From a virus: a DNA stretch of 22,945 nt. Positions 2,106 to 19,926 of the stretch are shown in pieces; positions within the stretch are counted from its first letter, which is position 1; each line of letters opens with the position of its first letter. Made by a program: the position numbers and the translations under genes. The stretch is taken from IMG/VR virus record IMGVR_UViG_3300033183_000070, positions 1 through 22,945 of that record. One strand, 5' to 3'. Below the pieces are notes generated by a model. The model was not told the origin of the DNA, made no database searches, and was given only the letters and a program-made list of their open reading frames with translations.

Positions 2106-2147
2106 ACGAATTGTTACACTGACCCATCTAACCTTTTCGGGTTTAAG

Positions 2148-2189
2148 CCCACGGGACATAGTGTTTGTAGCCACTTTCCGTGGGTTTTT
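2148..2189 (+). terminator. Rho-independent terminator after int
   Basis: CCCACGG (2148-2154) pairs perfectly with CCGTGGG (2178-2184), followed directly by five T residues. The 23-nt loop is long. A smaller competing hairpin, GGGTTTAAGCCC at 2139-2150, shares the bases CCC. It separates the MarR/integrase unit from the RNA polymerase promoter. Confidence 0.65.
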
Positions 2190-2252
2190 CTTCCCAGATT
2201 TACAACCTCAAACGGGTACTAACACAACAGTCAACACTCAACAAATTACACC

Positions 2253-2286
2253 ATGGTGCAAAGGCCTGACGAATAGGTTGCACCAT
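2253..2286. repeat. Inverted repeat spanning promoter P1 core
   Basis: ATGGTGCAA at 2253-2261 is the exact reverse complement of TTGCACCAT at 2278-2286, which forms the core of promoter P1. The spacer is 16 nt. The arrangement could be an operator for a dimeric regulator, a cruciform or hairpin, or a weak divergent promoter half. A similar inverted half-copy lies upstream of P2 (4811-4820). Confidence 0.6.
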
Positions 2287-2292
2287 AGCATC
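2274..2292 (+). promoter_or_regulatory. Phage RNA polymerase promoter P1 (upstream of RNAP gene)
   Basis: TAGGTTGCACCATAGCATC is identical here, at 4828 and at 6452, and shares its first 15 bases with 15802. Aligned on the ATAG end, 10 of the last 15 bases up to +1 match the T7 promoter, and CACCATAG differs from T7 CACTATAG at one base. The predicted start is G2288, leaving a 39-nt leader before the polymerase ATG. As no host promoter is evident here, the first round of polymerase synthesis must come from elsewhere. P1 would then add positive feedback. Confidence 0.72.
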
Positions 2293-2326
2293 CGCAACTA
2301 AAAGTAACTTGAAGGAATCACACAGA

Positions 2327-4798
2327 ATGACCAACGATCTGTACCTCACACAAGAAGCCCTCGAAAAAGAAAGCCGTGCCCTGACCATCCAAAGATTTGA
2401 GGCACAGCTAACTGAAAGAAAACAGAAAGAGGAAGAGACAGCCACCTACTATGGGGCACCCCTCATGAAGAGAGCAATCGAACCTCTGGCAGAGGCCATC
2501 GATGCGAAGATTGTAGAAGCTAACAGTGGACGATCAGGTCCACGGATGACAGCTATCCCTACCCTTGAACAGTTCGACAGTAAGGTGGTGGCATTCTTCA
2601 CTGCTAAGACCATCATCGATAAGCTGACTAGCAGAACCAACAAGCTACAATCAGTAGCCGTGATGATTGGTAAGAACCTTGAAGATGAACTGCGGTACAC
2701 CTCATTCCAAGAACAGCACCCATGGTTGTTTCAGAAACTGATGACTGAGATTGATACGACCCGTGCCCGTAAGAGACAGAACCTTGTGTCTGCATACAAT
2801 CGCTACTGTGATGTGTGGACTAGCTGGTCTGAGATTACCTACCTGCATGTCGGTATGTTGTTGATCGATCTGTTCCAACAGGTGACAGGTTTCATCGAGA
2901 TAATTGAGAAAAGAGAAGACAAGAACAAGACCATGAAGATCGTGGTGCCCAGCGCAGAGGTGGTTAATTTCATCGAGAAAAATTTTGACGCAGCGCAGAT
3001 GTTGAACCCAGTATATCTACCCATGGTCGTGCCACCTGCGGACTGGGAAGGACCACGTGGTGGGGGATACCTGACCGTGCATTCCAAGCAGCTGACCTTG
3101 GTGAAGACACGCAACCGTAACTACCTTGAGGAACTGGAAGGTATGCCTGAGCAAATGGCACCAGTCTATGAGGCTATCAACCACATCCAGCGTACACCTT
3201 GGAAGGTGAATGACTTTGTGTTGGCTGCGTTCCAGATCATCCACGATAAGGGACTGGCTACAGCTGGCCTACCATCAGGTGAAGACCTACCGCTACCACC
3301 ATCACCCTTGTCCAAGGACCAAGATAGTAAGACCCTAACTGATGTGCAGAAAGAACAGTTCAAGGCATGGAAGAAAGCAGCGACAGCTGTGTACGATGAG
3401 AACATCCGCATCAAATCCAAGCGACTGATGACATCCAAGATCAGAATGATTGCTGAGAAGTTCAGTGTGTACGAGAGCATCTACTTCCCTCACACAATGG
3501 ACTTCCGTGGTCGCATCTACCCTGCCCCGATGTACCTCAACCCTCAAGGCAACTCACTAGCCAAGGGGTTGTTGATGTTTGCCGATGGGAAACCATTGGG
3601 AACTAACGAGGCTGCATGTGAACTCGCTATCCATGGTGCTAACTGCTACGGCTACGACAAGGCATCGATGCAAGAGCGTGTTGACTGGGTGGTCGAACAC
3701 CAAGAGCAAATTTTACAAGCAGGGACAGACCCTATGGCTGACCTGTGGTGGGCTAAGGAAGCTGATGACCCATGGTCTTTCCTTGCGTTCTGTCGTGAGT
3801 GGGTAGGCTACTGTGAGCATGGCTATGACCACGTGTCTTACATCCCGATTGCTAAGGATGGTTCATGCTCTGGCTTGCAGCATTTCTCAGCTGCCCTGCG
3901 TGACCCTGAAGGTGGTAGTGCAGTCAACTTGCTGCCAACTGACAGACCTGCGGACATCTACCAGACTGTCATTGACAAGACGGAGCAAAAGGTTTGCGCA
4001 GACCTAACCCAAAACGAGTACAAAGAAATCGCACAGCTGTGGTTGGACTACGGTATGTCACGCAAGACAGCCAAGCGTACCACCATGACACGGGTGTATG
4101 GTTCTACTTTGTATTCAGCACGTGCATTCGTACAGGAATACATCATGGATACTGATGCCAAGCGTAGACAGGAGGACCCTGATTATGTCAGCCCTCTGAA
4201 TGGACGTGAGTTTGAAGCAGCGGTGTACCTAGCCAAGCATGTCTGGGCATCTATCAACGAGACAGTGATTGCTGCCAAAGATGGCATGGACTGGCTACAA
4301 GAATGTGCCCGTGAACTAGCAGCTGAGAATCTACCAATCGTATGGACCACCATCGATGGGTTCCCTGTCATGCAGAACTACCCTGACATGGCGAAGCGTA
4401 GAGTGAAGACCAAGTTCGGTGACCAGCTGGTGTACCTGACAGTCCAAGAGGCAATCAAGGACAAGCTAGATCGTCGTCGTCAAGGCAATGGCATTAGCCC
4501 TAACTGGGTACACGCCAATGATGGGTGTCACTTGCGTATGACTGTGAACCTAGCAGCATTTAATGGGGTGACCCACTTCGCAATGATACACGATAGCTTC
4601 GGGTGTCATGCAGCTGACGTTGAGATGCTTGGTGCATGTCTTCGTGAAACCTTTGTCGAACTGTACGTGGATAACGACCCGCTACTACGGTTCAAGGCCG
4701 AGGGTGAAGCCCTAGTCGGTAGAGAACTACCAGCCCTGCCCGAGAAGGGGGAACTGGACGTAACTCAAGTACGTGATAGCGAATTCTTTTTCGCATAA
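2327..4798 (+). CDS. T7-type single-subunit DNA-directed RNA polymerase
   Basis: An 823-aa relative of T7 gp1 (883 aa) that transcribes the phage genome from its own promoters. The key catalytic residues are present: D511 in KDGSCSGLQHFSA, K583 and Y591 in the KTAKRTTMTRVYG helix, and D756 in MIHDSFG. The protein ends in EFFFA, like the FAFA foot of T7 polymerase that closes the active site. The start at 2327 is chosen because AAGGA (2312-2316) lies 10 nt upstream. A TTG 18 nt earlier lies on the ribosome site itself. The promoter-specificity region (about 4430-4540) keeps the flanking NGISPNWVHANDG block but differs in the loop residues that read DNA in T7, consistent with a different promoter sequence. 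The gene lies between promoters P1 and P2. Confidence 0.97.
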   Translation: MTNDLYLTQEALEKESRALTIQRFEAQLTERKQKEEETATYYGAPLMKRAIEPLAEAIDAKIVEANSGRSGPRMTAIPTLEQFDSKVVAFFTAKTIIDKLTSRTNKLQSVAVMIGKNLEDELRYTSFQEQHPWLFQKLMTEIDTTRARKRQNLVSAYNRYCDVWTSWSEITYLHVGMLLIDLFQQVTGFIEIIEKREDKNKTMKIVVPSAEVVNFIEKNFDAAQMLNPVYLPMVVPPADWEGPRGGGYLTVHSKQLTLVKTRNRNYLEELEGMPEQMAPVYEAINHIQRTPWKVNDFVLAAFQIIHDKGLATAGLPSGEDLPLPPSPLSKDQDSKTLTDVQKEQFKAWKKAATAVYDENIRIKSKRLMTSKIRMIAEKFSVYESIYFPHTMDFRGRIYPAPMYLNPQGNSLAKGLLMFADGKPLGTNEAACELAIHGANCYGYDKASMQERVDWVVEHQEQILQAGTDPMADLWWAKEADDPWSFLAFCREWVGYCEHGYDHVSYIPIAKDGSCSGLQHFSAALRDPEGGSAVNLLPTDRPADIYQTVIDKTEQKVCADLTQNEYKEIAQLWLDYGMSRKTAKRTTMTRVYGSTLYSARAFVQEYIMDTDAKRRQEDPDYVSPLNGREFEAAVYLAKHVWASINETVIAAKDGMDWLQECARELAAENLPIVWTTIDGFPVMQNYPDMAKRRVKTKFGDQLVYLTVQEAIKDKLDRRRQGNGISPNWVHANDGCHLRMTVNLAAFNGVTHFAMIHDSFGCHAADVEMLGACLRETFVELYVDNDPLLRFKAEGEALVGRELPALPEKGELDVTQVRDSEFFFA

Positions 4799-4810
4799 CT
4801 AACCCAAAAC

Positions 4811-4839
4811 TGGTACAACCCATACAATAGGTTGCACCA
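4811..4839. repeat. Inverted repeat spanning promoter P2 core
   Basis: TGGTACAACC at 4811-4820 is the reverse complement of GGTTGCACCA at 4830-4839 except for one base. The spacer is 9 nt. It repeats the design at P1, though with a shorter spacer, so it is unlikely to be chance. P3 and P4 lack it. Confidence 0.55.
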
Positions 4840-4846
4840 TAGCATC
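4828..4846 (+). promoter_or_regulatory. Phage RNA polymerase promoter P2
   Basis: This is a perfect 19-bp copy of the promoter repeat in the short gap after the polymerase gene, with the predicted start at G4842. It would drive the 40-aa protein, SSB, endonuclease I and amidase. The 28-nt leader contains AAGGA (4858-4862) for the first gene. Confidence 0.75.
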
Positions 4847-4869
4847 TAGCAGAAACGAAAGGATACCAG

Positions 4870-4992
4870 ATGCGTTGTAAACAAACCCTAATCAACATCG
4901 CTGAGTATCAGTACAGGAACGATATGCCTGTACCCGCAGACATACTCGCCCAACTACTGGAAGCGGGTGTTGACATCCGTAAATATATGTAA
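4870..4992 (+). CDS. Small hypothetical protein, 40 aa
   Basis: A 40-aa open frame starting MRCKQTLINIAEY and ending GVDIRKYM. It has a strong ribosome site (AAGGA, 4858-4862, 7 nt before the ATG), sits directly behind promoter P2, and fills the gap between polymerase and SSB with its stop 8 nt before the SSB ATG. That stop region (TAAGGA) also provides the SSB ribosome site. No family is recognised. The predicted fold is one or two short helices (PADILAQLLEAGVDI). Small early proteins of this kind in T7-like phages often act on host enzymes, but nothing in the sequence shows a target. Confidence 0.65.
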   Translation: MRCKQTLINIAEYQYRNDMPVPADILAQLLEAGVDIRKYM

Positions 4993-5000
4993 GGACAGAC

Positions 5001-5606
5001 ATGACTAAGTTTGTAACTCCCAAAGGTGTCGCCGTATGGCCTCACCTAAACACACCCGATACTAAATTCGTAAGCGAAGGTGAGTATCACACAAAGCTTC
5101 GCATCCCAGCGGACGAAGCCCAGCCTCTTATCGAACAACTCGAAGATATTCGTAAGGCATATCTAGCAGAGGCAATTCGCAAGGACCCAAAGGTCAAGCA
5201 GTTCAAGATGGCTGACCTCTATGAAGAGGAAGTCGATGACCAAGGGGACCTGACAGGTAACTACCTGTTTAAGTTCAAACAGAAAGCAGTCATCAACACA
5301 CGTGCTGGCACCACCCTGAACATGAAGGTGGCCCTGTTCGACAGTCAAAAGAAACCGACTGATGTTTCAATCGGTGGTGGCTCAGTCATTCGTGTGGCTG
5401 CAACTGCAATCGGGTACGCCATGCCATCAACCAAGATGGTCGGCCTATCACTACGACCCAGCGCAATCCAGATCATCGAGTTATCTGGTGGTACAGGTGT
5501 AGAGGCTGATGTCTTTGCAGTAGAGGATGGCTTCGTGGGTGACGGTGTGACTGAAACCAAAGACGAGGTGCCTGTATTCTATGGCGAAGACGACACGGAC
5601 TTTTAA
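5001..5606 (+). CDS. Single-stranded DNA-binding protein, T7 gp2.5-like
   Basis: A 201-aa protein in the gp2.5 slot (T7: 232 aa). It coats single-stranded DNA during replication and recombination and contacts the polymerase and helicase through its tail. The N-terminal part (TPKGVAVWPHLNTPDTKF) matches the start of phage gp2.5-type OB-fold proteins. The last residues, GEDDTDF, form the acidic C-terminal tail ending in Phe that is functionally essential in T7 gp2.5. AAGGA at 4991-4995 gives a 5-nt spacing to the ATG. The 3' end overlaps endonuclease I by 26 nt. The assignment rests on position, length and the acidic aromatic-ended tail. Confidence 0.88.
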   Translation: MTKFVTPKGVAVWPHLNTPDTKFVSEGEYHTKLRIPADEAQPLIEQLEDIRKAYLAEAIRKDPKVKQFKMADLYEEEVDDQGDLTGNYLFKFKQKAVINTRAGTTLNMKVALFDSQKKPTDVSIGGGSVIRVAATAIGYAMPSTKMVGLSLRPSAIQIIELSGGTGVEADVFAVEDGFVGDGVTETKDEVPVFYGEDDTDF

Positions 5607-6024
5607 TAACTTAGGGTCCAAGTCGAAGACACGTAAACAAGCATTGGCAAACGGTTGGCGGTCAGGACTTGAAGAGAGTCTTGCCGCCTTTTTGCGTTCT
5701 GAGGGTATCTCGTATGAGTATGAACAGAACAAGATACATTACGTGGTCCCAGCTAGGGACGCTAAGTACACACCCGACTTCTACATTAAGACCCGAACAG
5801 GCAAGACCATCATCGTCGAAACCAAGGGCCGCTTCCTAACAGCGGACAGGCAGAAGATGATACTGGTCAAGCAGCAATTCCCTGACCTCGACATCCGCAT
5901 AGTGTTCAGTAGGTCTGAAACCAAAATCAGTAAACAATCAAAGACTACCTACGCCATGTGGTGTGAGAAGCATGGCTTCCCCCATGCGGACAAGGTAGTT
6001 CCACAGGAGTGGCTCGATGAGTAG
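5581..6024 (+). CDS. Endonuclease I (Holliday-junction resolvase), T7 gp3-like
   Basis: This 147-aa protein (T7 gp3: 149 aa) cleaves branched DNA and, in T7, also degrades host DNA to supply nucleotides. The catalytic set of the T7 enzyme is visible: E31 in SGLEESL, D66 in YTPDFYI, and E80 with K82 in IIVETKGR. The later blocks LDIRIVFSRS and CEKHG...ADK also match T7 gp3. It begins inside the SSB coding end and its stop overlaps the amidase ATG by 8 nt, so these three genes are translationally coupled. Confidence 0.95.
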   Translation: MAKTTRTFNNLGSKSKTRKQALANGWRSGLEESLAAFLRSEGISYEYEQNKIHYVVPARDAKYTPDFYIKTRTGKTIIVETKGRFLTADRQKMILVKQQFPDLDIRIVFSRSETKISKQSKTTYAMWCEKHGFPHADKVVPQEWLDE

Positions 6025-6454
6025 CATCAAACACATCATCGTACACTGCGCCTACACCCCCGAGAGCATGGACATTGGCGTCAAAGAAATTGACGCATGG
6101 CATCGCAAGCGCGGATGGATGGGGTGTGGCTACCATGCAGTGATTACCCGACAGGGTGTCGTCGAACTGGGCCGACCCCTTAACAAGACAGGCGCACACG
6201 TACGGGGGATGAATAGTACATCTAAGGGTATCTGCCTTATCGGTGGTATGAACCGATCAAAGACAGGACCTGAAATCAACTTCACCGATGAGCAATACGA
6301 ATCCCTGCGTATGCTTATCGATCAGTGGAAAGACTGGCACTTCCCTATGGCGAAGGTGTCTGGTCACACTGACTGGGACAGCAATAAAACCTGCCCCAAC
6401 TTTGACGCTGGTCACTGGTATGAGACTGGCGAAATCAAATCCACAATCAGTTAG
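6017..6454 (+). CDS. N-acetylmuramoyl-L-alanine amidase, T7 lysozyme (gp3.5)-like
   Basis: A 145-aa Amidase_2 protein (T7 gp3.5: 151 aa) that cleaves the amide bond between MurNAc and L-Ala. In T7 it also binds and inhibits the phage RNA polymerase. Zinc ligands and catalytic residues are all present: H10 (IIVHCAYT), Y39 (GCGYH), H117 (VSGHTDW), K124 and C126 (SNKTCPNF). The N terminus is short, and in T7 this tail contributes to polymerase binding, so inhibition of the polymerase is plausible but cannot be read from the sequence. The TAG stop is also the first three bases of promoter P3. Confidence 0.95.
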   Translation: MSSIKHIIVHCAYTPESMDIGVKEIDAWHRKRGWMGCGYHAVITRQGVVELGRPLNKTGAHVRGMNSTSKGICLIGGMNRSKTGPEINFTDEQYESLRMLIDQWKDWHFPMAKVSGHTDWDSNKTCPNFDAGHWYETGEIKSTIS

Positions 6455-6470
6455 GTTGCACCATAGCATC
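6452..6470 (+). promoter_or_regulatory. Phage RNA polymerase promoter P3
   Basis: This is a perfect 19-bp copy of the promoter repeat whose first three bases are the amidase stop codon. The predicted start is G6466. Unlike P1, P2 and P4, a terminator hairpin begins only 28 nt downstream, so expression of the replication module from P3 needs read-through. Confidence 0.72.
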
Positions 6471-6493
6471 TTAATGTTTCTTTCCTTCCAACT

Positions 6494-6524
6494 GGCTCAC
6501 CTTCGGGTGGGCCTTTTCTTTTTT
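6494..6524 (+). terminator. Rho-independent terminator right after P3
   Basis: GGCTCACC (6494-6501) and GGTGGGCC (6506-6513) form an 8-bp stem with one T-G pair around a very stable TTCG loop, followed by TTTTCTTTTTT. T7-type polymerase also stops, partially, at hairpins of this kind. It ends the P2 unit and would attenuate P3. Confidence 0.85.
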
Positions 6525-6535
6525 GGAGAAAAATT

Positions 6536-6721
6536 TTGCTGACACTTTTCGTCTACTTGTTGGCCTCATGTTTGTTCATGGGTGTCATCATAGACAGCCT
6601 CGAAGAAGACGAGCGGCTGACTGGTATTGGTCTGCTTATCGCTTCCTTACTCTGGCCTCTGGATGCGGTCCTAATGATTTGGACCATGGTAACCACGCCT
6701 TTCACTGACCCTGACAACTAG
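6536..6721 (+). CDS. Small two-TM membrane protein, possible holin
   Basis: A 61-aa protein with two hydrophobic segments (about residues 1-19 and 31-52) joined by a charged turn, SLEEDERL. The start is a TTG at 6536 with GGAG (6525-6528) 7 nt upstream. No ATG is available in frame before residue 15. A frame offset by one (6523-6708) is also open but has no ribosome site and no coherent composition. The size, two-helix hairpin design and position next to the amidase fit a small holin or other inner-membrane protein. T7 places its holin late, so this is a suggestion only. It follows the terminator directly. Confidence 0.6.
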   Translation: MLTLFVYLLASCLFMGVIIDSLEEDERLTGIGLLIASLLWPLDAVLMIWTMVTTPFTDPDN

Positions 6722-6730
6722 GAGAAACCC

Positions 6731-6925
6731 ATGACACAAATGGATACAGTACGTAAGCACCTACTAAAGTATGGTTCAATCTCACCACTTGAAGCACAGT
6801 CCAACTATAACATCTGGCGACTGGCTGCGGTGGTTGGTCGTCTAAAAGATAGCGGCCTATCAATCAAAACAACCATGAAGAAAGCACCGAGCGGCGCAAA
6901 GTATGCAGAATACCGCATCGGCTAA
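6731..6925 (+). CDS. Helix-turn-helix protein, HTH_39-like
   Basis: A 64-aa protein with the layout of small phage winged-helix proteins: a starting helix (MDTVRKHLLKYGSISPLEA), a second helix with the conserved IWRLAAVVGRLK, and the end block GAKYAEYRI after a basic wing (TTMKKAPSG). AGGAGA sits at 6720-6725 before the ATG. These proteins are common just ahead of phage replication genes and are thought to bind DNA or help replication. No function has been shown that I know of. Its last 23 nt overlap the primase-helicase start. Confidence 0.75.
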   Translation: MTQMDTVRKHLLKYGSISPLEAQSNYNIWRLAAVVGRLKDSGLSIKTTMKKAPSGAKYAEYRIG

Positions 6926-8519
6926 CTTCATTCATCATACATCATGCAACGACTGCGGTAGTTCAGATGCCCTCGGGGTCTACGACGATGGGTCGTCATG
7001 GTGTTTCTCTTGTGGCACGTTCAAGAAAGGGGTGACTATGGACATCGCACCTAAAACCCCTAGCAACACTGGTCTCATCCCAACGGGTGAGGCTCGTTCT
7101 CTTCCAAAGCGTAAGCTAAACGAAGAGACATGTCGCAAGTTTAGCTACACGATCAGCGAGTATCAGGGGCAACTCGTACATGTAGCCAACTACAAGAACT
7201 CAGAAGGTAAGGTTGTCGCGCAGAAGATACGGTTTGCGGACAAGTCCTTCAAGTTTCTTGGCGCACCCAAAGAGGCTGGCCTGTATGGTGAGCATCTATG
7301 GCGTGAAGGTGGCAAGATGCTTGTCATCACAGAGGGTGAATTGGATGCACTCTCAATGTCCCAAGCACAAGGCAATAAGTTCCCCGTGGTATCTCTACCC
7401 AACGGGGCACAGGCTGCAAAGAAAGCAGTCCAGAAGTCTCTCGATTTCGTTGAGAGTTTTGACAAGGTTGTCTTGATGTTTGACATGGATGATGCGGGTC
7501 GGGCCGCAGCCGTTGAGGTTGCGCAGTTACTCACACCATCCAAGGCGCACATCGCTACGTTACCCCTCAAGGATGCAAGCGATATGCTTGTGGCAGGTAA
7601 GCAATCTGACCTCATCAACGCGATGTGGGACGCAAAGATTTACCGACCAGATGGTATCATCGATGGACGAGACCTACTCGATCAGGTTCTAGCTGTCGAT
7701 GATACACCATCCATCCCGTACCCATTCGATGCCTTGAACAACAAGACACACGGTATGCGGCGGGGTGAACTTGTAACCATTACAGCTGGGTCAGGTGTAG
7801 GCAAGTCACAGATATGTCGTGAGATTGCATACCACCTAATCAAGCAGGGCGAGTCCCTTGGTTACATTGCCCTCGAAGAGAACGTGAAGCGCACGGCTCT
7901 GGGGCTTATGGGTTTGGCAATCGACAAGCCCTTACACTTAGACAGAGAAGGAGTAGACGATGATCTTATCAAGTCTGCTTTCGATGACACCGTTGGTAGT
8001 GGTCGTGTTTACCTCTACGATCATTTCGGCTCTATGGCTACAGACAATCTCCTCAACCGAGTACGCTATCTTGCGAAGAGTTGTGGCGTTGGCTGGGTTA
8101 TCCTCGATCATCTCAGCATTGTTGTTTCAGGTGTTGATGATGGCGATGAGCGGAAGGCTATAGATGTCATCATGACCAAGCTGCGTTCTCTTGTTGAAGA
8201 GACAGGCATCGGTCTTATCCTTGTGTCCCACCTTCGTCGTCCATCAGGTGACAAGGGGTGGGAAGAAGGCCTCCAAACGTCATTGAATTCCCTACGGGGG
8301 TCAGCTGCAATCGCGCAGTTGTCAGACATGTGCATTGGCGTTGAACGAAACCAACAGGGTGACAACCCTAACGTATCCACATTGCGTGTACTCAAGAACC
8401 GTTTCAGCGGTGAGACAGGTGTGGGTGCGTACCTCTATTACAACAAAGACACTGGTCGCATGATTGAAACCGATGACCCTAACACGGCATTCGGTGACGG
8501 CATGGACGAAGACTTCTAG
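6903..8519 (+). CDS. Primase-helicase, T7 gp4-like
   Basis: A 538-aa bifunctional replication protein (T7 gp4A: 566 aa) that unwinds DNA as a hexamer and makes RNA primers. Domains in order: zinc-binding domain with C15, C18, C34 and C37; TOPRIM-type primase with EGELDALS (144-151) and DMDD (194-197); RecA-like helicase with Walker A GSGVGKS (296-302), the ALEEN block, DHLSIV (Walker B region) and the late motif VSHLRRPSGDK, with LKNRFSGETG carrying the arginine-finger region. The start overlaps the HTH gene by 23 nt. An internal ATG with its own ribosome site lies at 7038, after the zinc domain. Confidence 0.96.
   Translation: MQNTASANFIHHTSCNDCGSSDALGVYDDGSSWCFSCGTFKKGVTMDIAPKTPSNTGLIPTGEARSLPKRKLNEETCRKFSYTISEYQGQLVHVANYKNSEGKVVAQKIRFADKSFKFLGAPKEAGLYGEHLWREGGKMLVITEGELDALSMSQAQGNKFPVVSLPNGAQAAKKAVQKSLDFVESFDKVVLMFDMDDAGRAAAVEVAQLLTPSKAHIATLPLKDASDMLVAGKQSDLINAMWDAKIYRPDGIIDGRDLLDQVLAVDDTPSIPYPFDALNNKTHGMRRGELVTITAGSGVGKSQICREIAYHLIKQGESLGYIALEENVKRTALGLMGLAIDKPLHLDREGVDDDLIKSAFDDTVGSGRVYLYDHFGSMATDNLLNRVRYLAKSCGVGWVILDHLSIVVSGVDDGDERKAIDVIMTKLRSLVEETGIGLILVSHLRRPSGDKGWEEGLQTSLNSLRGSAAIAQLSDMCIGVERNQQGDNPNVSTLRVLKNRFSGETGVGAYLYYNKDTGRMIETDDPNTAFGDGMDEDF
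7025..7040 (+). promoter_or_regulatory. Internal ribosome site and start for a zinc-less helicase form
   Basis: Within the primase-helicase gene, GAAAGGGG (about 7024-7031) stands 6-7 nt before an in-frame ATG at 7038 (Met46), just after the last zinc-ligand cysteine (residue 37). T7 makes gp4B from an internal start at the same architectural point. The likely product is a 493-aa helicase lacking the zinc domain. Confidence 0.5.
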
Positions 8520-8537
8520 CTAGTCGAAAGGGACAGC

Positions 8538-10322
8538 ATGGAACGTATATTGTTCGACATCGAAACTAACGGCCTACTGGATGAACTAACTATGGTTCAC
8601 TCACTAGTCCTCATCGATCTGGATACAGGTGACTTGGTATCCTGTGCAGATCAGGAAGGTTACCGCTCAGTCGATGAGGGTATCGATATCCTGTATGGCG
8701 CAAAGCTATTGGTCGGTCACAACATTCAAGGGTTCGACCTACCAGCACTACACAAGACACACCAGTTCGACACTGATGCAGAACTACACGATACGCTTAT
8801 CATGTCTCGATTGATCTGGTCAGACCTCAAGCACAATGACTTCAGGTTCCTTGAGAAGAACCCCGAGTTCCCTAAACAACTCATCGGGTCACACTCACTG
8901 AAGGCATGGGGTTACCGTCTAGGCAACCACAAGGATGAGTATGACGGTGGCTGGGACTCATGGTCCAAGGACATGCAGGACTACTGCGAACAGGACACAC
9001 GTGCCAACCTGACATTCTATGAAAAGATACTGAGCAAGAACCCAAGTGAAGAAAGCGTAAAGCTTGAACACGACTTTGCTCATGTCATCCGTAAGCAAGA
9101 GCGACAAGGTTTCAACTTCGATGAAGCTGGTGCCGAGAAGCTACTTGCTAAACTACAAACCCGACAAGCAGAACTAGAGGGTGAACTGCAAGAAGCTTTC
9201 CCGCCGTGGGAAATCAAGGAACCCTTCGTACCCAAGGTCAACAACAAGACCCGTGGGTATGTGAAAGGTCAGTTAACCTACAAGGTCAAAGAGGTTGTCT
9301 TCAACCCTGCCTCGCGTGACCACATCGCAGACAGATTGCAGAAGCTTCGGGATTGGAAACCTACCGACTTCACTGCCCAAGGGAAACCGAAGGTGGACGA
9401 AGCGGTACTCGCAGAGTTGGATTACCCAGAGGCCAAGGTGCTGAACGAATACTTGTTAATCAACAAGCGTATCGGGCAGCTGGCTACTGGTTCCAACGCA
9501 TGGCTCAAGCTTGTTAAGGACGGTAAGATACATGGACAAGTCAACACCAACGGTGCAGCGACTGGAAGATGCACACACAATAGACCGAACATCGCACAGG
9601 TCCCATCAGTGGGCGCAGCGTATGGCACTGAATGCCGTGGTCTGTTCCGTGCGCCAGAAGGTTATGCCCTTGTGGGTGCTGACCTCTCGGGTCTGGAACT
9701 ACGTTGCCTTGCTCACTACATGGCTCGCTTCGATGGTGGGTCGTATGGTGATGTAGTCGTCAACGGTGACATCCATACACAGAACCAGAATGCGGCAGGG
9801 TTACCTACTAGGAACAATGCCAAGACATTTATTTACGGATTCTTGTATGGCGCAGGTCCAGCCAAGATCGGATCCATCGTTGGTGGTTCCGAGAAGGAAG
9901 GTCGCAAGCTTATCGCCAAGTTCATGAAAGCTACACCAGCTATCAAGTTACTACGCGAGGCGGTGTCCGCTTCAGTCAAGAAGAACGGATACCTCAAGGG
10001 ACTGGATGGTCGAGAGTTACCTATACGCTCAGACCATGCTGCCCTTAACACGCTACTACAGTCAGCGGGTGCAGTCTTATCAAAGAAAGCAACCGTTATC
10101 TTGTATGAAAATCTAACCGCAATGGGTTACATCTGGGGCGTGGACTACGCTCAAGTGGCCCATGTTCATGACGAGGTGCAGCTGATTGCCCGTAAGGAAA
10201 TAGCTGATGTCATCGGACAAGAAGCAGTTAAGTCTTTTCAGCAAGCTGGAGAGTTTTACAACTTCAGATGCCCTATCACAGGGGAGTACAAGGTCGGCCA
10301 TGATTGGGCAGACACGCACTGA
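8538..10322 (+). CDS. Family A DNA polymerase, T7 gp5-like
   Basis: A 594-aa replicative polymerase (T7 gp5: 704 aa). The 3'-5' exonuclease has D7-x-E9 in FDIETNGL, GHNIQGFD and the QDTRANLTFY block. The polymerase domain has motif A with D382 (GADLSGLELR), motif B (RNNAKTFIYGFLYGAG, 425-440) and motif C H544-D545-E546. Tyr433 occupies the position of E. coli Pol I Phe762 and T7 Tyr526. The thumb segment holding the thioredoxin-binding loop in T7 looks partly conserved (NPASRDHI...YLLINKRIGQ). Most of the missing length seems to be in small insertions elsewhere, such as before GYLKGLDGR. Ribosome site GAAAGGGA lies at 8525-8532. Confidence 0.97.
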   Translation: MERILFDIETNGLLDELTMVHSLVLIDLDTGDLVSCADQEGYRSVDEGIDILYGAKLLVGHNIQGFDLPALHKTHQFDTDAELHDTLIMSRLIWSDLKHNDFRFLEKNPEFPKQLIGSHSLKAWGYRLGNHKDEYDGGWDSWSKDMQDYCEQDTRANLTFYEKILSKNPSEESVKLEHDFAHVIRKQERQGFNFDEAGAEKLLAKLQTRQAELEGELQEAFPPWEIKEPFVPKVNNKTRGYVKGQLTYKVKEVVFNPASRDHIADRLQKLRDWKPTDFTAQGKPKVDEAVLAELDYPEAKVLNEYLLINKRIGQLATGSNAWLKLVKDGKIHGQVNTNGAATGRCTHNRPNIAQVPSVGAAYGTECRGLFRAPEGYALVGADLSGLELRCLAHYMARFDGGSYGDVVVNGDIHTQNQNAAGLPTRNNAKTFIYGFLYGAGPAKIGSIVGGSEKEGRKLIAKFMKATPAIKLLREAVSASVKKNGYLKGLDGRELPIRSDHAALNTLLQSAGAVLSKKATVILYENLTAMGYIWGVDYAQVAHVHDEVQLIARKEIADVIGQEAVKSFQQAGEFYNFRCPITGEYKVGHDWADTH

Positions 10323-10605
10323 TAATTCGCACTCAATACGAATGCGAGAACTGGTGCAGCAACGTAAGCGAGACTTGGTTGCCTACAAGGGTGGAAGATG
10401 TGAACGGTGCGGGGGTGTATATCACCCCAACATCTATGACTTCCACCACTACGACCCCGAGATGAAATCATTCACGGTGTGTCAAGCGAACTTCCAACGC
10501 AGTTGGGACAACATCACAGCCGAGGCAGATAAATGCTTCATGCTGTGTGCCAACTGTCATCGTGAAGTTCACACATTCAACGAGCCTGAATTTAACAAAC
10601 TCTAA
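10300..10605 (+). CDS. HNH endonuclease
   Basis: A 101-aa HNH nuclease. CERCG and CANCH form the structural zinc site, DFHHYDP holds the metal-binding His pair, and the second CxxC is followed by HREVH. The frame is open from 10207, but a start there would overlap the polymerase by 116 nt. The ATG at 10300 (23-nt overlap) fits the style of this genome, and ATG 10342 lacks a ribosome site. Free-standing HNH genes often sit beside phage polymerase genes as homing endonucleases, which is the likeliest role here. Nicking or recombination functions are alternatives. Confidence 0.85.
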   Translation: MIGQTRTDNSHSIRMRELVQQRKRDLVAYKGGRCERCGGVYHPNIYDFHHYDPEMKSFTVCQANFQRSWDNITAEADKCFMLCANCHREVHTFNEPEFNKL

Positions 10606-10614
10606 CCCGAAAGT

Positions 10615-11259
10615 ATGAGAATGATTGATGTATCTTACATGACCCACATGGGTGATGACGACCTTGTTGTTGATGCAGCACGTGTGTCGTTTGACAAACA
10701 AGCCGATGCCTATGGTCCTACCCGTAACGCACGGTTGATTAACTTCCTTGCACGTGAACAACACATGCATCCCTTCTCGCATCCACAAGCTACCTTCAGA
10801 TGTGCAGCCCCGATCTTCGTGGCCCGACAACTGGCAAAGCACCAAGTCGGTGGCACGTGGAACGAGGTGTCACGTAGATACGTGAAGTCACAACCTGCCT
10901 ACTGGAAGCCAGAGTTCTTCCGAGCGGCAGCTGATGATGTCAAGCAGGGTTCCTCTCCCGACCCTCATCGGCGTTCCGAAGAGTTCCTCGAAGAATACCA
11001 TGACATCTGTATCGATGCGATTGCTTGCTACAACAAGATGGTCGCACTCGGTATCTGCGCAGAACAGGCACGGGCTATCCTACCACAAGGTGCAATCACT
11101 GAGTGGGTATGGACTGGTTCGCTCCTGTTCTGGTCGCGGGTCTACAACCTACGCATCAAGCCTGACACTCAGAAAGAGACACGTGAGTTTGCTGAACTAC
11201 TCGGTGAACAGATGCAATCCCTTTACCCACTATCATGGAAAGCACTCACCGATGGATGA
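10615..11259 (+). CDS. thyX: Flavin-dependent thymidylate synthase ThyX
   Basis: A 214-aa enzyme converting dUMP to dTMP with FAD, NADPH and methylene-tetrahydrofolate. Family blocks are visible: AARVSFDKQ, HPFSHPQATFRCAAPIFVARQL, and WNEVSRRYV, with S86 and R87-R88 at the dUMP site. The usual RHRx7S signature is altered: the first part reads KHQVGG rather than RHR, as I recall from many phage ThyX proteins. RAILPQGAITEWVWTGS follows as expected. A second ATG at 10621 has better spacing to GAAAG (10609-10613) and may be the true start. It supplies thymidine for phage DNA together with NrdJ and MazG nearby. Confidence 0.94.
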   Translation: MRMIDVSYMTHMGDDDLVVDAARVSFDKQADAYGPTRNARLINFLAREQHMHPFSHPQATFRCAAPIFVARQLAKHQVGGTWNEVSRRYVKSQPAYWKPEFFRAAADDVKQGSSPDPHRRSEEFLEEYHDICIDAIACYNKMVALGICAEQARAILPQGAITEWVWTGSLLFWSRVYNLRIKPDTQKETREFAELLGEQMQSLYPLSWKALTDG

Positions 11260-11416
11260 ACACGAAGAAGCTGTTAAGCAATTAATGAAGACCGACATCG
11301 CTACCATTGTCGAACAGATGGATGACATGGGTGAGGACGTTGTACACTTTCAGGTCGAGTTTACTGATGCAACACTGGACGTACACATCACACTGCGTTC
11401 GAGTACGATGCAATGA
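11252..11416 (+). CDS. Small hypothetical acidic protein, 54 aa
   Basis: An acidic 54-aa protein (MDEHEEAVKQLMKTDIA...LRSSTMQ) fitted exactly between ThyX and the exonuclease: its ATG overlaps the ThyX stop by 8 nt (ATGGATGA) and its TGA overlaps the exonuclease ATG (ATGA). This perfect fit is the main evidence that it is a gene. No family is recognised. The prediction is an N-terminal helix followed by beta strands (VVHFQVEFTD, LDVHITLRS). Confidence 0.7.
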   Translation: MDEHEEAVKQLMKTDIATIVEQMDDMGEDVVHFQVEFTDATLDVHITLRSSTMQ

Positions 11417-12150
11417 GGTATCTAATTGATGCCGACATCGTAGCGTTCAAGGCAGCAAGCGCAGCTGAGAAACCTATCAACTGGGGTGGTGGTCTATGGA
11501 CCCTTTATGCCTACGAGGATGAAGCACAAGCCTACGTGTATGAATACTTCACCCGCATTATTAACAAGCTAGGCGATGGTGAGTTAGCCCTGTTCCTTAC
11601 AGGTCCCGACAACTGGCGTAAGGATGTCTTGCCCACCTACAAAGGTAACCGCAAGGAAACCCGTAAGCCTATGGTCCTACCTGCTATCAAGCAGTGGATG
11701 ATGGAAACCATGGGTGCCGTGATGTTACCCACCATGGAAGCTGATGACCTACTAGGTATCGAGGCTACCAAGGATGGTGGCATCATTGTGTCTGAGGACA
11801 AGGACCTCAAGACCATCCCGTGTATGTTGTTTAACCCAGCCAAGGACAAAGAACCTTACGAGATTACTGAGTTCGAAGCTGACTACAATCACATGTACCA
11901 AACCCTGACAGGCGATAGCACTGATGGGTACTCGGGGTGTCCTACTGTTGGCCCCAAGAAAGCTGGTGAAATCCTAAAAGGTTGCACCAACACTACAGAA
12001 ATGTGGGCAGCTGTCGTGGCTGCATATGAAAAGCAAAACCTCTCAGAAGAAGTAGCCCTTACCATGGCACAGGTATCACGTATCTGCCGTGTCGAGGATT
12101 TCGACTTCGATAACATGAAGGCTATCCCATGGACACCAAAGACATCGTAA
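11413..12150 (+). CDS. 5'-3' exonuclease, T7 gp6-like
   Basis: A 245-aa FEN/PIN-type nuclease (T7 gp6: about 300 aa) that removes primers and degrades host DNA. Acidic metal-binding residues follow the family order: D7 in YLIDADIVAF, EADDLLG, and VSEDKDLK. YKGNRKETRKP is the usual basic DNA-contact segment, and TDGYSGCPTVGPKKA is the helix-hairpin-helix turn. A stretch matching the promoter core (AGGTTGCACCA, 11979-11989) lies within this gene but lacks the ATAG end. It is coupled to its neighbours by overlaps of 4 and 22 nt. Confidence 0.9.
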   Translation: MRYLIDADIVAFKAASAAEKPINWGGGLWTLYAYEDEAQAYVYEYFTRIINKLGDGELALFLTGPDNWRKDVLPTYKGNRKETRKPMVLPAIKQWMMETMGAVMLPTMEADDLLGIEATKDGGIIVSEDKDLKTIPCMLFNPAKDKEPYEITEFEADYNHMYQTLTGDSTDGYSGCPTVGPKKAGEILKGCTNTTEMWAAVVAAYEKQNLSEEVALTMAQVSRICRVEDFDFDNMKAIPWTPKTS

Positions 12151-12374
12151 ACAAACCCGACCACTACACTCGGTATGTCATCGAGCCTATCGAGTTCATC
12201 ATGCATAACGGTCTACCCTTCCACGTAGGTAACATCGTTAAGTACGCAGTCCGCGCTGGGTACAAATCATACCCTGACATGTCCGATGCAGAGGCAGAGA
12301 TTACCGACCTACGGAAAGTAATCCGATATGCTGAGATGCGTATTAATCAGCTGCAAGGAAAGGCGTCACTATGA
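12129..12374 (+). CDS. DUF3310 protein, related to T7 gp1.7 nucleotide kinase domain
   Basis: An 81-aa protein with the DUF3310 pattern: KPDHYTRYVIEPIEFI, then HVGNIVKYAVRAGYK and a closing helix with DLRKVIRYAEMRI. T7 gp1.7, which contains this domain, phosphorylates dGMP and dTMP. The present protein is much shorter, so catalysis is uncertain. GAAGG at 12117-12121 gives a 7-nt spacing. Its location between the exonuclease and glutaredoxin, within a nucleotide-metabolism block, supports a role in dNTP supply. Confidence 0.85.
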   Translation: MDTKDIVNKPDHYTRYVIEPIEFIMHNGLPFHVGNIVKYAVRAGYKSYPDMSDAEAEITDLRKVIRYAEMRINQLQGKASL

Positions 12375-12598
12375 GTTTCATTGTGTTGTCTTCCAATAAC
12401 TGCAAGTGGTGTCAGAAAGCTATCAAGCTTTTAGAAGACGAGGGGTTGGACTTTCAGGTCCGCTCCGTTTCCGACAAGCCGTGGCTTAAAACCTTAATGG
12501 CTCAGGCAAACCTAACCACAGTACCACAGGTGTTCAGACCTGATGGTCAACTGGTCGGTGGCTATGAGGCACTGCAAGTCTACTTAGGTCGGCACTGA
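12371..12598 (+). CDS. Glutaredoxin
   Basis: A 75-aa thioredoxin-fold protein with redox motif C11-K-W-C14, the cis-Pro block TTVPQVF and the final GGYEAL helix, which are standard for glutaredoxins. It overlaps the DUF3310 gene by ATGA and is two genes upstream of the ribonucleotide reductase, so its likely job is to reduce the C-terminal cysteine pair of that enzyme with glutathione or a host reductase. The partner assignment is inferred from context. Confidence 0.92.
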   Translation: MSFIVLSSNNCKWCQKAIKLLEDEGLDFQVRSVSDKPWLKTLMAQANLTTVPQVFRPDGQLVGGYEALQVYLGRH

Positions 12599-12861
12599 TG
12601 TTCACCGTTGAACACGTAGCCGATGGAACCGTTGTCACAATCTTAGATACCGAAGGTCAGATGGAAGATGTCGAGTGCATCTTCGATGACCATGGTGTGT
12701 GGATTAGGCAATTCGATAATCAACAAAACGAACATGACTTAGTGTTCATGCAGCACAACCAATGGACCAGCTTAATGGCTTCGCTCCAATGCTCAGAGGG
12801 TGTGTATAAACTCAAGGATACTTATGCAGAACGATATAGTGGCACCAGCCCTAACCCTTAA
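12598..12861 (+). CDS. Hypothetical protein, 87 aa
   Basis: No family is recognised. The start overlaps the glutaredoxin stop by one base (TGATG) and the end overlaps MazG by 38 nt, so it sits tightly within the nucleotide-metabolism cluster. The sequence is mostly predicted beta strand (MFTVEHVADGTVVTILD, HDLVFMQHNQWTSLM), with a length fitting a small single-domain protein. It has no signal peptide or membrane segment. Confidence 0.7.
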   Translation: MFTVEHVADGTVVTILDTEGQMEDVECIFDDHGVWIRQFDNQQNEHDLVFMQHNQWTSLMASLQCSEGVYKLKDTYAERYSGTSPNP

Positions 12862-13165
12862 CCACTACCAAGAACAAGCAGCGACAACCGCTATCTATCC
12901 ACAAGAAGTGGCAATGGAATATTTAAGCTTGGGTCTTTGCTCAGAAGCTGGCGAGTTCGCTGGTAAGATAGCCAAATGGTATCGCAAAGATAACGACTTC
13001 CCACGTGGGGATGTCATCGATGAACTCGGTGATGTCCTTTGGTTCATCGCTCAGATGGCTAACGAATTGGAAGTCCCACTCTCAGTAATAGCACGAAGAA
13101 ATTTAGACAAACTAACATCCCGACAAGACCGTGGGGTGCTTAAAGGAAGCGGTGATAACAGATGA
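12824..13165 (+). CDS. MazG-like nucleotide pyrophosphohydrolase
   Basis: A 113-aa all-alpha NTP-PPase. The metal-binding pattern E41-x-x-E44 (SEAGEFAGKI) and E67-x-x-D70 (DELGDVLWF) is complete. The start at 12824 is chosen because AAGGA (12814-12818) is 5 nt upstream. An ATG at 12800 would lengthen the overlap and lacks a ribosome site. Phage MazG proteins hydrolyse dNTPs, or possibly (p)ppGpp, and may recycle host nucleotides or dampen starvation signalling. It shares ATGA with the nrdJ start. Confidence 0.92.
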   Translation: MQNDIVAPALTLNHYQEQAATTAIYPQEVAMEYLSLGLCSEAGEFAGKIAKWYRKDNDFPRGDVIDELGDVLWFIAQMANELEVPLSVIARRNLDKLTSRQDRGVLKGSGDNR

Positions 13166-15117
13166 CATTCTCGACACGGGCGCAGGTAGTAACGCGCCGA
13201 ACATATAACCGTCCCCTCGATCTAGCGGGGACACAATTCGAAACTTGGGAACAAACCATTGACCGAGTAATCGACCACCAGCGATGGTTGTGGGTACGGG
13301 CCAAGAAAGGTGTCGCACTTACAGCTAGGGAAAACCAAGAATTGGTAGACCTACGCGACTTGTATCTCAAACGAATTGCTTGCCCATCGGGACGTACCCT
13401 ATGGCTAGGCGGTACTGATGTTGCTCGTCGTCGTGAGGCCTCACAGTTCAACTGTTCATTCGGGCAGATACAGACAGTACACGATGTGGTCGATGCTTTC
13501 TGGCTGCTACTGCAAGGATGTGGTGTTGGCTTCGAGCCTATCGTCGGCACACTGAATGGTTTCTCTCGTCCACTTGAGGTGACAATCAAACGTTCAACAC
13601 GTGTCAACCGTGGCTTCGAACACAACAAAGAGTACACACAAGGTGACGTACATATCATCGAGGTAGGTGATAGTGCAGAGGCATGGGCCAAGTCTATTGG
13701 TAAGCTACTCGCCTACAAGGGCAGCGCATCCCGCCTCATCCTTGACTTCACACAGATCAGACCTGCGGGTGAACGCCTATCAGGTTACGGTTGGATTAGT
13801 TCAGGTGATGATACAATCTCGAAAGCATTTAAAGAGATTGCAGGTATCCTGAACAAACGTGCAGGTGAACTGCTAGATCGTATCGACATCCTCGATGTCC
13901 TGAACTGGTTGGGTACATGCTTGTCATCTCGTCGTTCAGCTGAGATTGCAGTCATGCCTTATGGCGCGCCACAGTGGGAAGAGTTTGCATCAGCAAAGAA
14001 GGACCATTGGATTGACAATCCACAACGGGCACAGTCGAACAACTCATTGCTGTTCTATAAACGTCCAGACCCAGCGGAACTAGACAACATCATGCAGATG
14101 ATGATTGATGCTGGGGGTTCAGAACCTGCATTCATCAACGCCGAGGCTGCACTGAAACGTGCCCCATGGTTTAAGGGAGTTAACCCGTGTGCTGAGATAT
14201 TGCTCGGTTCCAAATCCTTCTGCAACTTAGTCGAATTTGACCTCAACAAAACCAACGGTCAGGACTTCAACGTGGTCCGTTACTGGATCAAGTTACTTGC
14301 CCGTGCCAACTACCGTCAGACATGTGTAAACTTTGAAGATGGTGTGTTGCAACGTGCATGGCATGAACTGAATGAGTTCCTACGTCTGACAGGTGTAGGT
14401 CTTACAGGTATCGTGACATGGGAACACTTGGACAAGCCCGAGCGATTCCAAATGTTACGTGAAGCTGCACAGATGGGTGCCCATGAGATGGCTGATGAAC
14501 TAGGACTACCTCGTTCCAAAGCTGTCACGACAGTGAAACCATCAGGAACCTTGTCGAAGATTATGGATACAACAGAGGGCGTACACAAACCACTAGGTAA
14601 GTACATCTTCAACAACATTCGCTTCAGTAAACATGACCCATTAGTAGAGGTACTACGAAATGCTAACTACAGAATTTTCGACGACCCCTATAGTGATGAT
14701 AGCGTACTTGCTACCTTTCCTGTTAGCTATGAGAATGTCGTATTTAACACTGTTGATGGTAAGGAAGTTAATATTGAAAGTGCGGTCGAACAATTAGACC
14801 GTTACAAGATGATGGTCGATAACTATGTTGACCATAACTGTTCTGTCACCATCAGTTATGACCCTAGTGAGAAGGATGCCATCGTTGAATGGCTACTAAC
14901 AAACTGGGATTCATACGTGGGTGTGTCATTCATCTTCCGTAATGACCCAACCAAAACCGCAGAGGACCTTGGGTATCCTTACCTGCCACAAGAAGTGGTC
15001 GATGAGGAAACATTCAAGTCCTATGAGGCTCAACTTCTACCAATCGATCTCGAAGCTGCTAACAGCCTAGAGGAACTAGATGAGGCATGTTCCACAGGAG
15101 CCTGTCCAATACGGTAA
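13162..15117 (+). CDS. nrdJ: Adenosylcobalamin-dependent (class II) ribonucleotide reductase
   Basis: A 651-aa monomeric class II enzyme of the Lactobacillus leichmannii type, which makes deoxyribonucleotides using a radical from coenzyme B12. The catalytic set is visible: C98 (FNCSFG), C343-x-E345 in NPCAEI and C354 in KSFCNL, with the same C-x-E and +11 Cys spacing as the Lactobacillus enzyme, plus the shuttle pair C643/C648 in CSTGACPIR at the C terminus. Because it needs B12, the host must make or import it. The glutaredoxin two genes upstream is a likely reductant. The gene appears intact. Confidence 0.96.
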   Translation: MTFSTRAQVVTRRTYNRPLDLAGTQFETWEQTIDRVIDHQRWLWVRAKKGVALTARENQELVDLRDLYLKRIACPSGRTLWLGGTDVARRREASQFNCSFGQIQTVHDVVDAFWLLLQGCGVGFEPIVGTLNGFSRPLEVTIKRSTRVNRGFEHNKEYTQGDVHIIEVGDSAEAWAKSIGKLLAYKGSASRLILDFTQIRPAGERLSGYGWISSGDDTISKAFKEIAGILNKRAGELLDRIDILDVLNWLGTCLSSRRSAEIAVMPYGAPQWEEFASAKKDHWIDNPQRAQSNNSLLFYKRPDPAELDNIMQMMIDAGGSEPAFINAEAALKRAPWFKGVNPCAEILLGSKSFCNLVEFDLNKTNGQDFNVVRYWIKLLARANYRQTCVNFEDGVLQRAWHELNEFLRLTGVGLTGIVTWEHLDKPERFQMLREAAQMGAHEMADELGLPRSKAVTTVKPSGTLSKIMDTTEGVHKPLGKYIFNNIRFSKHDPLVEVLRNANYRIFDDPYSDDSVLATFPVSYENVVFNTVDGKEVNIESAVEQLDRYKMMVDNYVDHNCSVTISYDPSEKDAIVEWLLTNWDSYVGVSFIFRNDPTKTAEDLGYPYLPQEVVDEETFKSYEAQLLPIDLEAANSLEELDEACSTGACPIR

Positions 15118-15120
15118 ACT

Positions 15121-15804
15121 ATGCGAAAGAAGTCAACTTACAAACGTAAGCAAGAAGAGCATGAGGTTGTACACGGTCCCCGTGTGCAGCCCCTGCTTCC
15201 AAAGAACCCAGCCCAGCGCAACTACATTGATTGTATACACCAATACCCTCAAGTCTTTGTGACGGGACCAGCTGGTACAGGTAAGACATACATAGCCGCA
15301 GCCATTGCAGCTGACATGTACAACCGACACCAGATACACAAGATTATCTTGACGAGGCCTAACATCCCCGCAGGTAAATCTCTGGGTTTCTTTGCTGGTA
15401 CTATTGAAGAGAAGATTGCCCCGTGGGTGGTCCCCCTTACCGAAGTCCTACAGGAACGCTTAGGCAAAGGACGGTTCGAGGTGGCTCAGAAACGTGGCGA
15501 CATCGAGATTGTACCCTTCGAAGTTATGCGTGGTCGCAGCTTCAACAATGCTTTCGTCATCCTAGACGAAGGACAGAACCTAACACCACATGAGATGAAG
15601 ATGTTCCTGACCCGAATAGGTGAGGACAGTAAGGTTATCGTCAACGGCGATATATCCCAGCATGACCTGCAAGGCTCTAGCGGCCTGAAGGTAGCTATTG
15701 ATCTTCTCTACAAGCATAACATTCCCGCAGCCCACTGCAACTTTACACACGATGACGTAGTTCGATCAGGCATATGTGCCGCATGGACTAAGGCTTTTGG
15801 TTAG
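15121..15804 (+). CDS. phoH: PhoH-like ATPase
   Basis: A 227-aa P-loop protein of the PhoH family, common in marine phages. Walker A GPAGTGKT is at residues 49-56, Walker B VILDEGQN starts at 146, and the family block NGDISQHDL and the RPNIPAGKSLGF segment follow the usual pattern. The cellular role is unsettled: members have been linked to phosphate stress and to RNA helicase or RNase-type activity. It begins 3 nt after nrdJ with only a weak ribosome site, so it probably depends on coupling. The TAG stop is part of promoter P4. Confidence 0.94.
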   Translation: MRKKSTYKRKQEEHEVVHGPRVQPLLPKNPAQRNYIDCIHQYPQVFVTGPAGTGKTYIAAAIAADMYNRHQIHKIILTRPNIPAGKSLGFFAGTIEEKIAPWVVPLTEVLQERLGKGRFEVAQKRGDIEIVPFEVMRGRSFNNAFVILDEGQNLTPHEMKMFLTRIGEDSKVIVNGDISQHDLQGSSGLKVAIDLLYKHNIPAAHCNFTHDDVVRSGICAAWTKAFG

Positions 15805-15820
15805 GTTGCACCATAGAGGA
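15802..15820 (+). promoter_or_regulatory. Phage RNA polymerase promoter P4 (virion genes)
   Basis: The first 15 bases (TAGGTTGCACCATAG) equal P1-P3, and the last four change from CATC to AGGA, which creates the ribosome site of the next gene. The predicted start is G15816, so the mRNA leader is only about 12 nt. The first three bases are the PhoH stop codon. This is the only copy seen ahead of the virion genes. Confidence 0.72.
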
Positions 15821-15827
15821 TTCAATA

Positions 15828-16004
15828 ATGTTCCCATTAGTATCTAATGAACTCATTAAGGAACTAGAAGAACGCTATCCTGAGAAATCACCACGCCCAG
15901 ATGAGCGATATGAAGACCTTATGTTTCGTGGTGGTCAGCGTCAGGTAGTTAACTTCTTAAAAATGATTAACGAGGACCAAGCTTCCTCGCAACTAGGAGA
16001 GTAA
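15828..16004 (+). CDS. Small conserved-looking protein, 58 aa
   Basis: A 58-aa protein, MFPLVSNELIKELEERYP...ASSQLGE, directly behind promoter P4, with GAGGA (15816-15820) 7 nt before the ATG. Similar short proteins beginning MFP and containing a Gly-x-Arg/Gln...HLK-type helix occur at this place, between PhoH and the portal, in marine T7-like phages as far as I recall. Function is unknown. The composition is charged and helical. It ends 2 nt before the next gene. Confidence 0.78.
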   Translation: MFPLVSNELIKELEERYPEKSPRPDERYEDLMFRGGQRQVVNFLKMINEDQASSQLGE

Positions 16005-16006
16005 CT

Positions 16007-16234
16007 ATGTGCTTTGGAAGCCCTAAAGTAGAACCTGCGCCACCCCCCGCAGCCCCGCCCAGCGCGAACCCAGTCATGACGAACATGTATGACCCAAGTT
16101 CACCTGAGAGCGGTATGGCAGCTGAGAAGGGTGCCGTATCAAACAAAGCCAAGGGTACGTCCCAGCTTAAAGTAGACCTTGACCCAACAACACAAGCAAT
16201 GGGTAAGGGTACTGGTCTTCAAATCAATAAGTGA
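16007..16234 (+). CDS. Small proline-rich protein upstream of portal, possibly T7 gp7.3-like
   Basis: A 75-aa protein starting MCFGSPK, followed by a Pro/Ala-rich stretch (residues 8-22), and ending in LKVDLDPTTQAMGKGTGLQINK. T7 gp7.3, a small virion-assembly protein encoded in the same place, also ends in a short hydrophobic-basic strand followed by Gly-rich GGGINI, so a distant relationship is possible. The MCFG start recurs in small proteins near phage portal genes. AGGAG lies at 15995-15999. The family link is a guess from position and tail pattern. Confidence 0.72.
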   Translation: MCFGSPKVEPAPPPAAPPSANPVMTNMYDPSSPESGMAAEKGAVSNKAKGTSQLKVDLDPTTQAMGKGTGLQINK

Positions 16235-16242
16235 GAACGTGA

Positions 16243-17790: not shown

Positions 17791-17878
17791 TAAGCCAGCC
17801 GAGAAAGCTGAACCAAAGAAACCACTGGCTGCCCCTGCAATCGCAAAGGGTCCAAAGATTAAGCGAGTAGATAACTAA
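17756..17878 (+). CDS. Small Lys/Ala/Pro-rich protein, 40 aa
   Basis: A 40-aa open frame, MLKAKDSKAANDK...GPKIKRVDN, starting inside the portal 3' end with a ribosome site AGGAAA (17744-17749) 7 nt upstream and ending 2 nt before the scaffold gene. It fills an otherwise empty 90-nt gap and lies in a frame different from the portal. It is basic and probably disordered. No family is recognised. Its position suggests a small virion or assembly factor. Alternatively the gap is just untranslated sequence. Confidence 0.55.
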   Translation: MLKAKDSKAANDKPAEKAEPKKPLAAPAIAKGPKIKRVDN

Positions 17879-17880
17879 GC

Positions 17881-18591: not shown

Positions 18592-18598
18592 CACGATC

Positions 18599-18623
18599 TG
18601 GTGGGGCCTTAGTAGCCCCATCA
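18599..18623 (+). other. Intercistronic hairpin between scaffold and 44-aa gene
   Basis: TGGTGGGGC (18599-18607) pairs with GCCCCATCA (18615-18623) around a 7-nt loop, with one G-T pair. It lacks a T-run, so it is not a classic terminator. The ribosome site of the next gene (AAGGAG, 18627-18632) begins 4 nt after the stem. It may be an RNase processing site, an mRNA stabiliser or a translational control. Confidence 0.6.
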
Positions 18624-18637
18624 ATTAAGGAGTTATT

Positions 18638-18772
18638 ATGGCTAAGAAAGGCCTATACGCCAACATCCATGCTAAACGTGCCCGTGGTGAGAAACCTCGT
18701 AAGGTAGGCTCAAAAGGCGCACCGACAGCGAAAGACTTTAAGAACGCAGCTAAGACTGCGAAGAAAAAATGA
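18638..18772 (+). CDS. Small basic protein, 44 aa
   Basis: A 44-aa, Lys/Arg-rich protein, MAKKGLYANIHAKRARGEKP...GSKGAPTAKDFKNAAKTAKKK. I recognise the KGLYANIHAK and GSKGAPTAKDF pattern from small proteins of marine podoviruses and cyanophages, often encoded next to the capsid gene; their function is unknown. AAGGAG precedes the ATG by about 5 nt. It is flanked on both sides by hairpins (18599-18623 and 18771-18791), and being strongly basic it might bind nucleic acid inside the virion. That is inference. Confidence 0.8.
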   Translation: MAKKGLYANIHAKRARGEKPRKVGSKGAPTAKDFKNAAKTAKKK

Positions 18773-19869: not shown

Positions 19870-19877
19870 TTCTATTC

Positions 19878-19907: not shown

Positions 19908-19926
19908 CTAATCGCATGAGGACAAC

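Follow-up and report, generated by a model that had tools for sequence, protein, structure and literature searches.

The 22,945-nucleotide stretch of viral DNA analyzed here (referred to as the window) carries a repeat whose copies, judging from sequence comparisons, are very probably the cognate promoters of a T7-family RNA polymerase encoded by the phage itself. Promoters of this type are known, but the specificity of the window motif would be new. In the open-licence literature we found no earlier description of its GGTTGCAC core together with a phage RNA polymerase, and the word "promoter" is absent from the paper on the CRP isolates (PMC11092137). Integrase-bearing marine autographiviruses thereby gain a promoter that can be put to the test, and ~300 environmental polymerase loci serve as a natural experiment on the reading of bases -11 to -7 by the specificity loop.

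The repeat and its genomic setting

The window represents part of a Roseobacter autographivirus genome, 93.9% identical to Roseobacter phage CRP-125. Its gene products include a MarR-like regulator and an integrase, an RNA polymerase of the single-subunit T7 family, SSB, endonuclease I, and an amidase, as well as a primase/helicase, DNA polymerase, ThyX, an exonuclease, ribonucleotide reductase, PhoH, and virion proteins. The longest RNA polymerase open reading frame begins at TTG 2309, but ATG 2327 is more likely to be the start codon, since both the annotation of relatives and the spacing favor it. According to the alignment, the specificity loop of this polymerase reads R-K-L-Y at T7 positions 746, 748, 756, and 758.

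A scan of the whole window for TAGGTTGCACCATAG yielded four exact copies, all on the plus strand, at 2274, 4828, 6452, and 15802, and the best site outside these copies had three mismatches. Identity extends to the 19 bases TAGGTTGCACCATAGCATC in three copies and to 21 bases in two. In dinucleotide shuffles, the longest word that occurred four times had only 9 to 10 nucleotides (word lengths of 9 to 12 nucleotides tried); the fourfold occurrence of TAGGTTGCACCATAG far exceeds chance. All four copies sit at gene borders (Table 1), and for those at 6452 and 15802 the TAG of the motif doubles as the stop codon of the gene 5' of the copy. The scan therefore bears out the original prediction of four plus-strand copies, three of them sharing 19 bases, at module boundaries.

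Table 1 Features of the window
Feature	Position	Strand	Location	Predicted +1	Basis or remark
Predicted phage promoter	2271..2293	+	Before RNA polymerase gene	G2288, 39 nt 5' of ATG 2327	Weight matrix score 32.5 bits; syntenic in CRP-125/113/171/114/227/361
Predicted phage promoter	4825..4847	+	Between RNA polymerase gene and 40-aa ORF/SSB/endonuclease/lysozyme	G4842	Exact motif, weight matrix, relatives
Predicted phage promoter	6449..6471	+	At lysozyme stop codon, 5' of replication genes	G6466	Exact motif, weight matrix, relatives
Predicted phage promoter	15799..15821	+	At phoH stop codon, 5' of virion genes	G15816	Exact motif, weight matrix, relatives
Single-subunit RNA polymerase gene	2309..4798	+			Pfam RNA_pol 6.9e-106; PHROG 414; alignment
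Intrinsic terminator	6494..6523	+	28 nt after predicted G6466 start		LUZ100 phi4/T6 has the same promoter-then-terminator order
Hairpin + T-run	2145..2191	+	Between integrase gene and polymerase promoter		Fold z = -3.7

Two further sequence features were observed in the window. An inverted repeat of 29 bases at 4811-4839 (TGGTACAACC...GGTTGCACCA) has as one half the predicted promoter that follows the polymerase gene; CRP-125 and CRP-113 differ from the window in this flank. A weak conserved TTAGGTTGCCG..AACCT element lies between the hydrolase gene and the MarR-like gene at 464-490 (CRP-125, 1582; CRP-113, 1177); it may have operator function or represent a degenerate promoter.

Conservation among relatives and promoter architecture

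In CRP-125, CRP-113, and CRP-171, the motif occupies the four borders known from the window, and a fifth copy lies 3' of the large terminase gene, so that the proposed set of four holds within the window but becomes five per genome. The final G of the five CRP-125 copies is at G3405, G5946, G7570, G16920, and G36564. Versions of the type TTAGGTTGCACC(T/A)(A/T)AG are found in CRP-114, CRP-227, and CRP-361; the latter two have lost the post-lysozyme copy, of which a decayed remnant is left 5' of an intact terminator. Environmental relatives have the version TTAGGTTGCAC(C/T), in many of them as TTAGGTTGCACTATAG, which contains the full CACTATAG core common to T7, T3, and SP6 promoters (PMC13029058). 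We also checked for phages with the same polymerase that lack the repeat at module borders, which the original prediction had named as evidence against itself: the repeat is kept at the same borders in the CRP phages and in many relatives from IMG/VR.

A weight-matrix scan, suggested originally for the 15-mer and run here with 23 columns, gave just four matches of at least 9 bits in the window and 4 to 5 matches of more than 20 bits per complete relative, all on the plus strand. On the reverse strand, all matches in the window and the complete CRP genomes stayed below 13 bits. The strong matches lie in or touch intergenic gaps, which make up 6.5% of CRP-125. The motif was also recovered de novo by comparing the DNA before and after the polymerase gene in the window clade. 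For other phages, this comparison gave words shared by both places, each with its own sequence; for T7, T3, and SP6 it gave no shared word. A search for prophages of the window clade in bacterial genomes returned just two distant polymerases, with other loops.

The repeats could also be read as DNA-level sites for a replication origin, recombination, or packaging. The fifth copy is close to the right genome end, and the annotated primary origin of T3 comes after the promoter that follows the polymerase gene, so some copies may have both roles. However, given the single orientation of the copies and their placement just 5' of an operon in every case, we regard sites of this kind in place of promoters as extremely improbable.

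The virion module (window 15816-22945; CRP-125 16906-36550) has one strong phage promoter only. By the weight matrix, there is none in the ~300 bp of noncoding DNA that precede the capsid gene (window 18592-18894).

The motif has the T7-family layout of about 17 to 23 bp, with an AT-rich stretch at -17 to -13, a loop-contact segment at -12 to -5, a melting region at -4 to -1, and a G at +1. In the 23-column alignment, information peaks at -12 to -5 and at -1/+1 and is lower at -4 to -2, a profile that mirrors the division between recognition and initiation in T7-family promoters. This profile also bears on the idea that the repeats are operators or stoperators of a phage repressor, e.g., the MarR-like protein, that silence module borders in the lysogen. 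In its favor, both this regulator and an integrase are encoded by the phage; GGTTGCACC forms a partial palindrome, and the CRP-114 motif reads TTAGGT-TGC-ACCTAA. Conservation is nevertheless asymmetric: position -4 varies between C and T while its dyad partners -12/-11 stay GG, and the G at +1 is kept. We therefore rejected a dyad operator with symmetric half-sites, and repressor binding as the explanation of the repeats is very improbable.

Arrays of the heptamer TRCACCA/TGGTGYA were observed at 2005-2047 and 2246-2261, partly in 11-bp steps; they lie at or just beyond the 3' end of the integrase gene and a second time 5' of the polymerase promoter. Such arrays are also present in L042, L043, L044, L045, L048, L050, L062, L066, and CRP-114/227/361. 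They might serve as repressor operators or as arm sites of the integrase on both sides of attP. The heptamer TGCACCA is contained in every phage promoter of window-type phages, so a protein binding this heptamer (the integrase or the MarR-like regulator) could touch all of them, and there is a slim chance that it silences the whole regulon in the lysogen. The overlap between arrays and promoters may be a coincidence, because relatives with CACT promoters still have CACCA in their arrays. A search of the integrase-polymerase interval against 399 genomes for a host attachment site, run with no positive control, gave no match.

Co-variation of the motif core with the polymerase loop

If the repeat is a promoter set, its core should be read by the specificity loop. 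We used 315 polymerase loci and sought the core within ~350 nt upstream or 150 nt downstream of each gene. GGTTGCAC flanks 75 of the 87 genes whose products have K748 together with Y/F758 and none of the 221 others (the Fisher test on these counts ignores shared ancestry). Three of the 12 loci without an exact core represent one contig cut just 5' of the gene, and others carry GGTTGCAC with one mismatch; L065, L078, and L201 fall into neither class.

The pairing of K748 and Y/F758 with GGTTGCAC is present in separate lineages of the polymerase tree. The polymerase of Bordetella phage BB8, ~39% identical to that of the window and outside the window clade, clusters with YIMV22061 and T7/T3. Yet BB8 has the same R-K-L-Y residues, and its repeats (beginning with GGTTGCACA) have the same -12 to -5 core before the polymerase gene, after it, and after the terminase gene; its initiation region, AATAGGATA, is unlike that of the window motif. 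YIMV22061, the sister of BB8, has D748/K758 and the promoter AACCCCCAC, and among the relatives retrieved with the BB8 polymerase GGTTGCAC is present or absent in step with the loop residues. On another branch, L084 combines an R-K-V-F loop with TTAGGTTGCACC sites, none of which adjoins its polymerase gene. The natural site of L180 is GGTTCCAC.

To resolve single positions, we compared 30 loop/promoter pairs. The table was first aligned by hand and, because this might bias the result, redone with an automatic register rule. The hand-aligned table excludes LUZ100, the HTVC031P type, and CRP-804, whose register could not be assigned clearly; rows related to them are part of the automatic table. 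The motif sequence co-varies with residues 746, 748, 756, and 758, the top pairs, also under the automatic register, being 746 with -7, 748 with -11/-10, 756 with -9, and 758 with -8; since residue/base pairs are not independent, the P values serve as guides only. In the hand-aligned table, at position 758, Y/F goes with G-8, Q with T-8, and K/R with C-8 or A-8; at 748, K/R goes with G-11 (one exception) and D/E with C-11; at 756, R goes with C-9. In the T7 structure, residue 746 pairs with base -7. The other three pairings agree with the T7 contacts of 748 with -10/-11, 756 with -9, and 758 with -8, within an overall loop contact from -11 to -7 (PMC5937735). The promoters found de novo suggest a base-by-base loop code.

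That the motif tracks the polymerase residues reading promoter bases, and does so across lineages, argues further against both repressor operators and DNA-level sites. The promoter function originally proposed for the repeat gains support from this joint change of polymerase and motif and from the conserved borders in relatives.

Transcription scheme and comparison with known phages

Under the promoter reading, the AT-rich -17 to -13 segment would precede bases -12 to -5 (GGTTGCAC), read one by one by the specificity loop; -4 to -1 would melt, and the transcript would begin at the final G of the motif. Host RNA polymerase would supply the first phage polymerase molecules; 5' of the polymerase gene, no sigma-70-type site was conspicuous, with counts below those in shuffles. 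The phage polymerase would then activate its own gene through the 5' copy, a positive feedback implied by a polymerase gene with its own promoter, as in LUZ100. The remaining copies would drive the SSB/lysozyme, replication, and virion blocks, with a fifth at the right genome end. One point against promoters is that a strong terminator follows one copy at a distance of 28 nt, but the mapped LUZ100 has the same arrangement; like T7 TE, this terminator may act on host transcription and end it.

Among classical promoters, the nearest is that of SP6 (TTAGGTGACACTATAG), which matches the window motif at 13 of 16 bases (12 of 15 without the preceding T). The two are identical at -15 to -10, at -7 to -5, and in ATAG, and they differ at -9 and -8 (T,G versus G,A) and at -4. 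Outside the loop, the SP6 polymerase is 33% identical to that of the window, and it has a gap and K in place of L756 and Y758. SP6 hereby replaces T7, to which the motif had originally been likened: the count of 10 of 15 matching bases is correct, but the match is weak and proves little alone, because the window has 21 places that fit T7 equally well, whereas just 4 reach 12 of 15 for SP6. Consistently, the clade weight matrix recovers real SP6 promoters in the SP6 genome and none in T7. T7 promoters share the layout, CAC at -7 to -5, and ATAG at -3 to +1. Unlike that of the window phage, the T7 polymerase gene is not immediately preceded by a phage promoter; T7 also has more promoters, several of them within the virion module.

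A closely similar layout is known from LUZ100, a temperate T7-like Pseudomonas phage whose phage promoters were mapped by ONT-cappable-seq (PMC10134795). They lie before and after the polymerase gene, after the lysozyme gene, where an intrinsic terminator follows at once, and 3' of the large terminase gene. The window shares the first three places, including the terminator, and CRP-125 has the fourth. The LUZ100 terminator T4 occupies the same place as the hairpin at 2145..2191, the probable terminator of the lysogeny operon. The LUZ100 polymerase is 39% identical to that of the window, its promoter sequence (beginning with AATTACCACACAG) and its R-D-R-L loop are unlike those of the window, and it has 8 phage promoters, compared with 5 in window-type phages. 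The LUZ100 authors link the self-promoted polymerase gene to the choice between lysis and lysogeny (PMC10134795); our findings support this self-activation layout beyond Pseudomonas.
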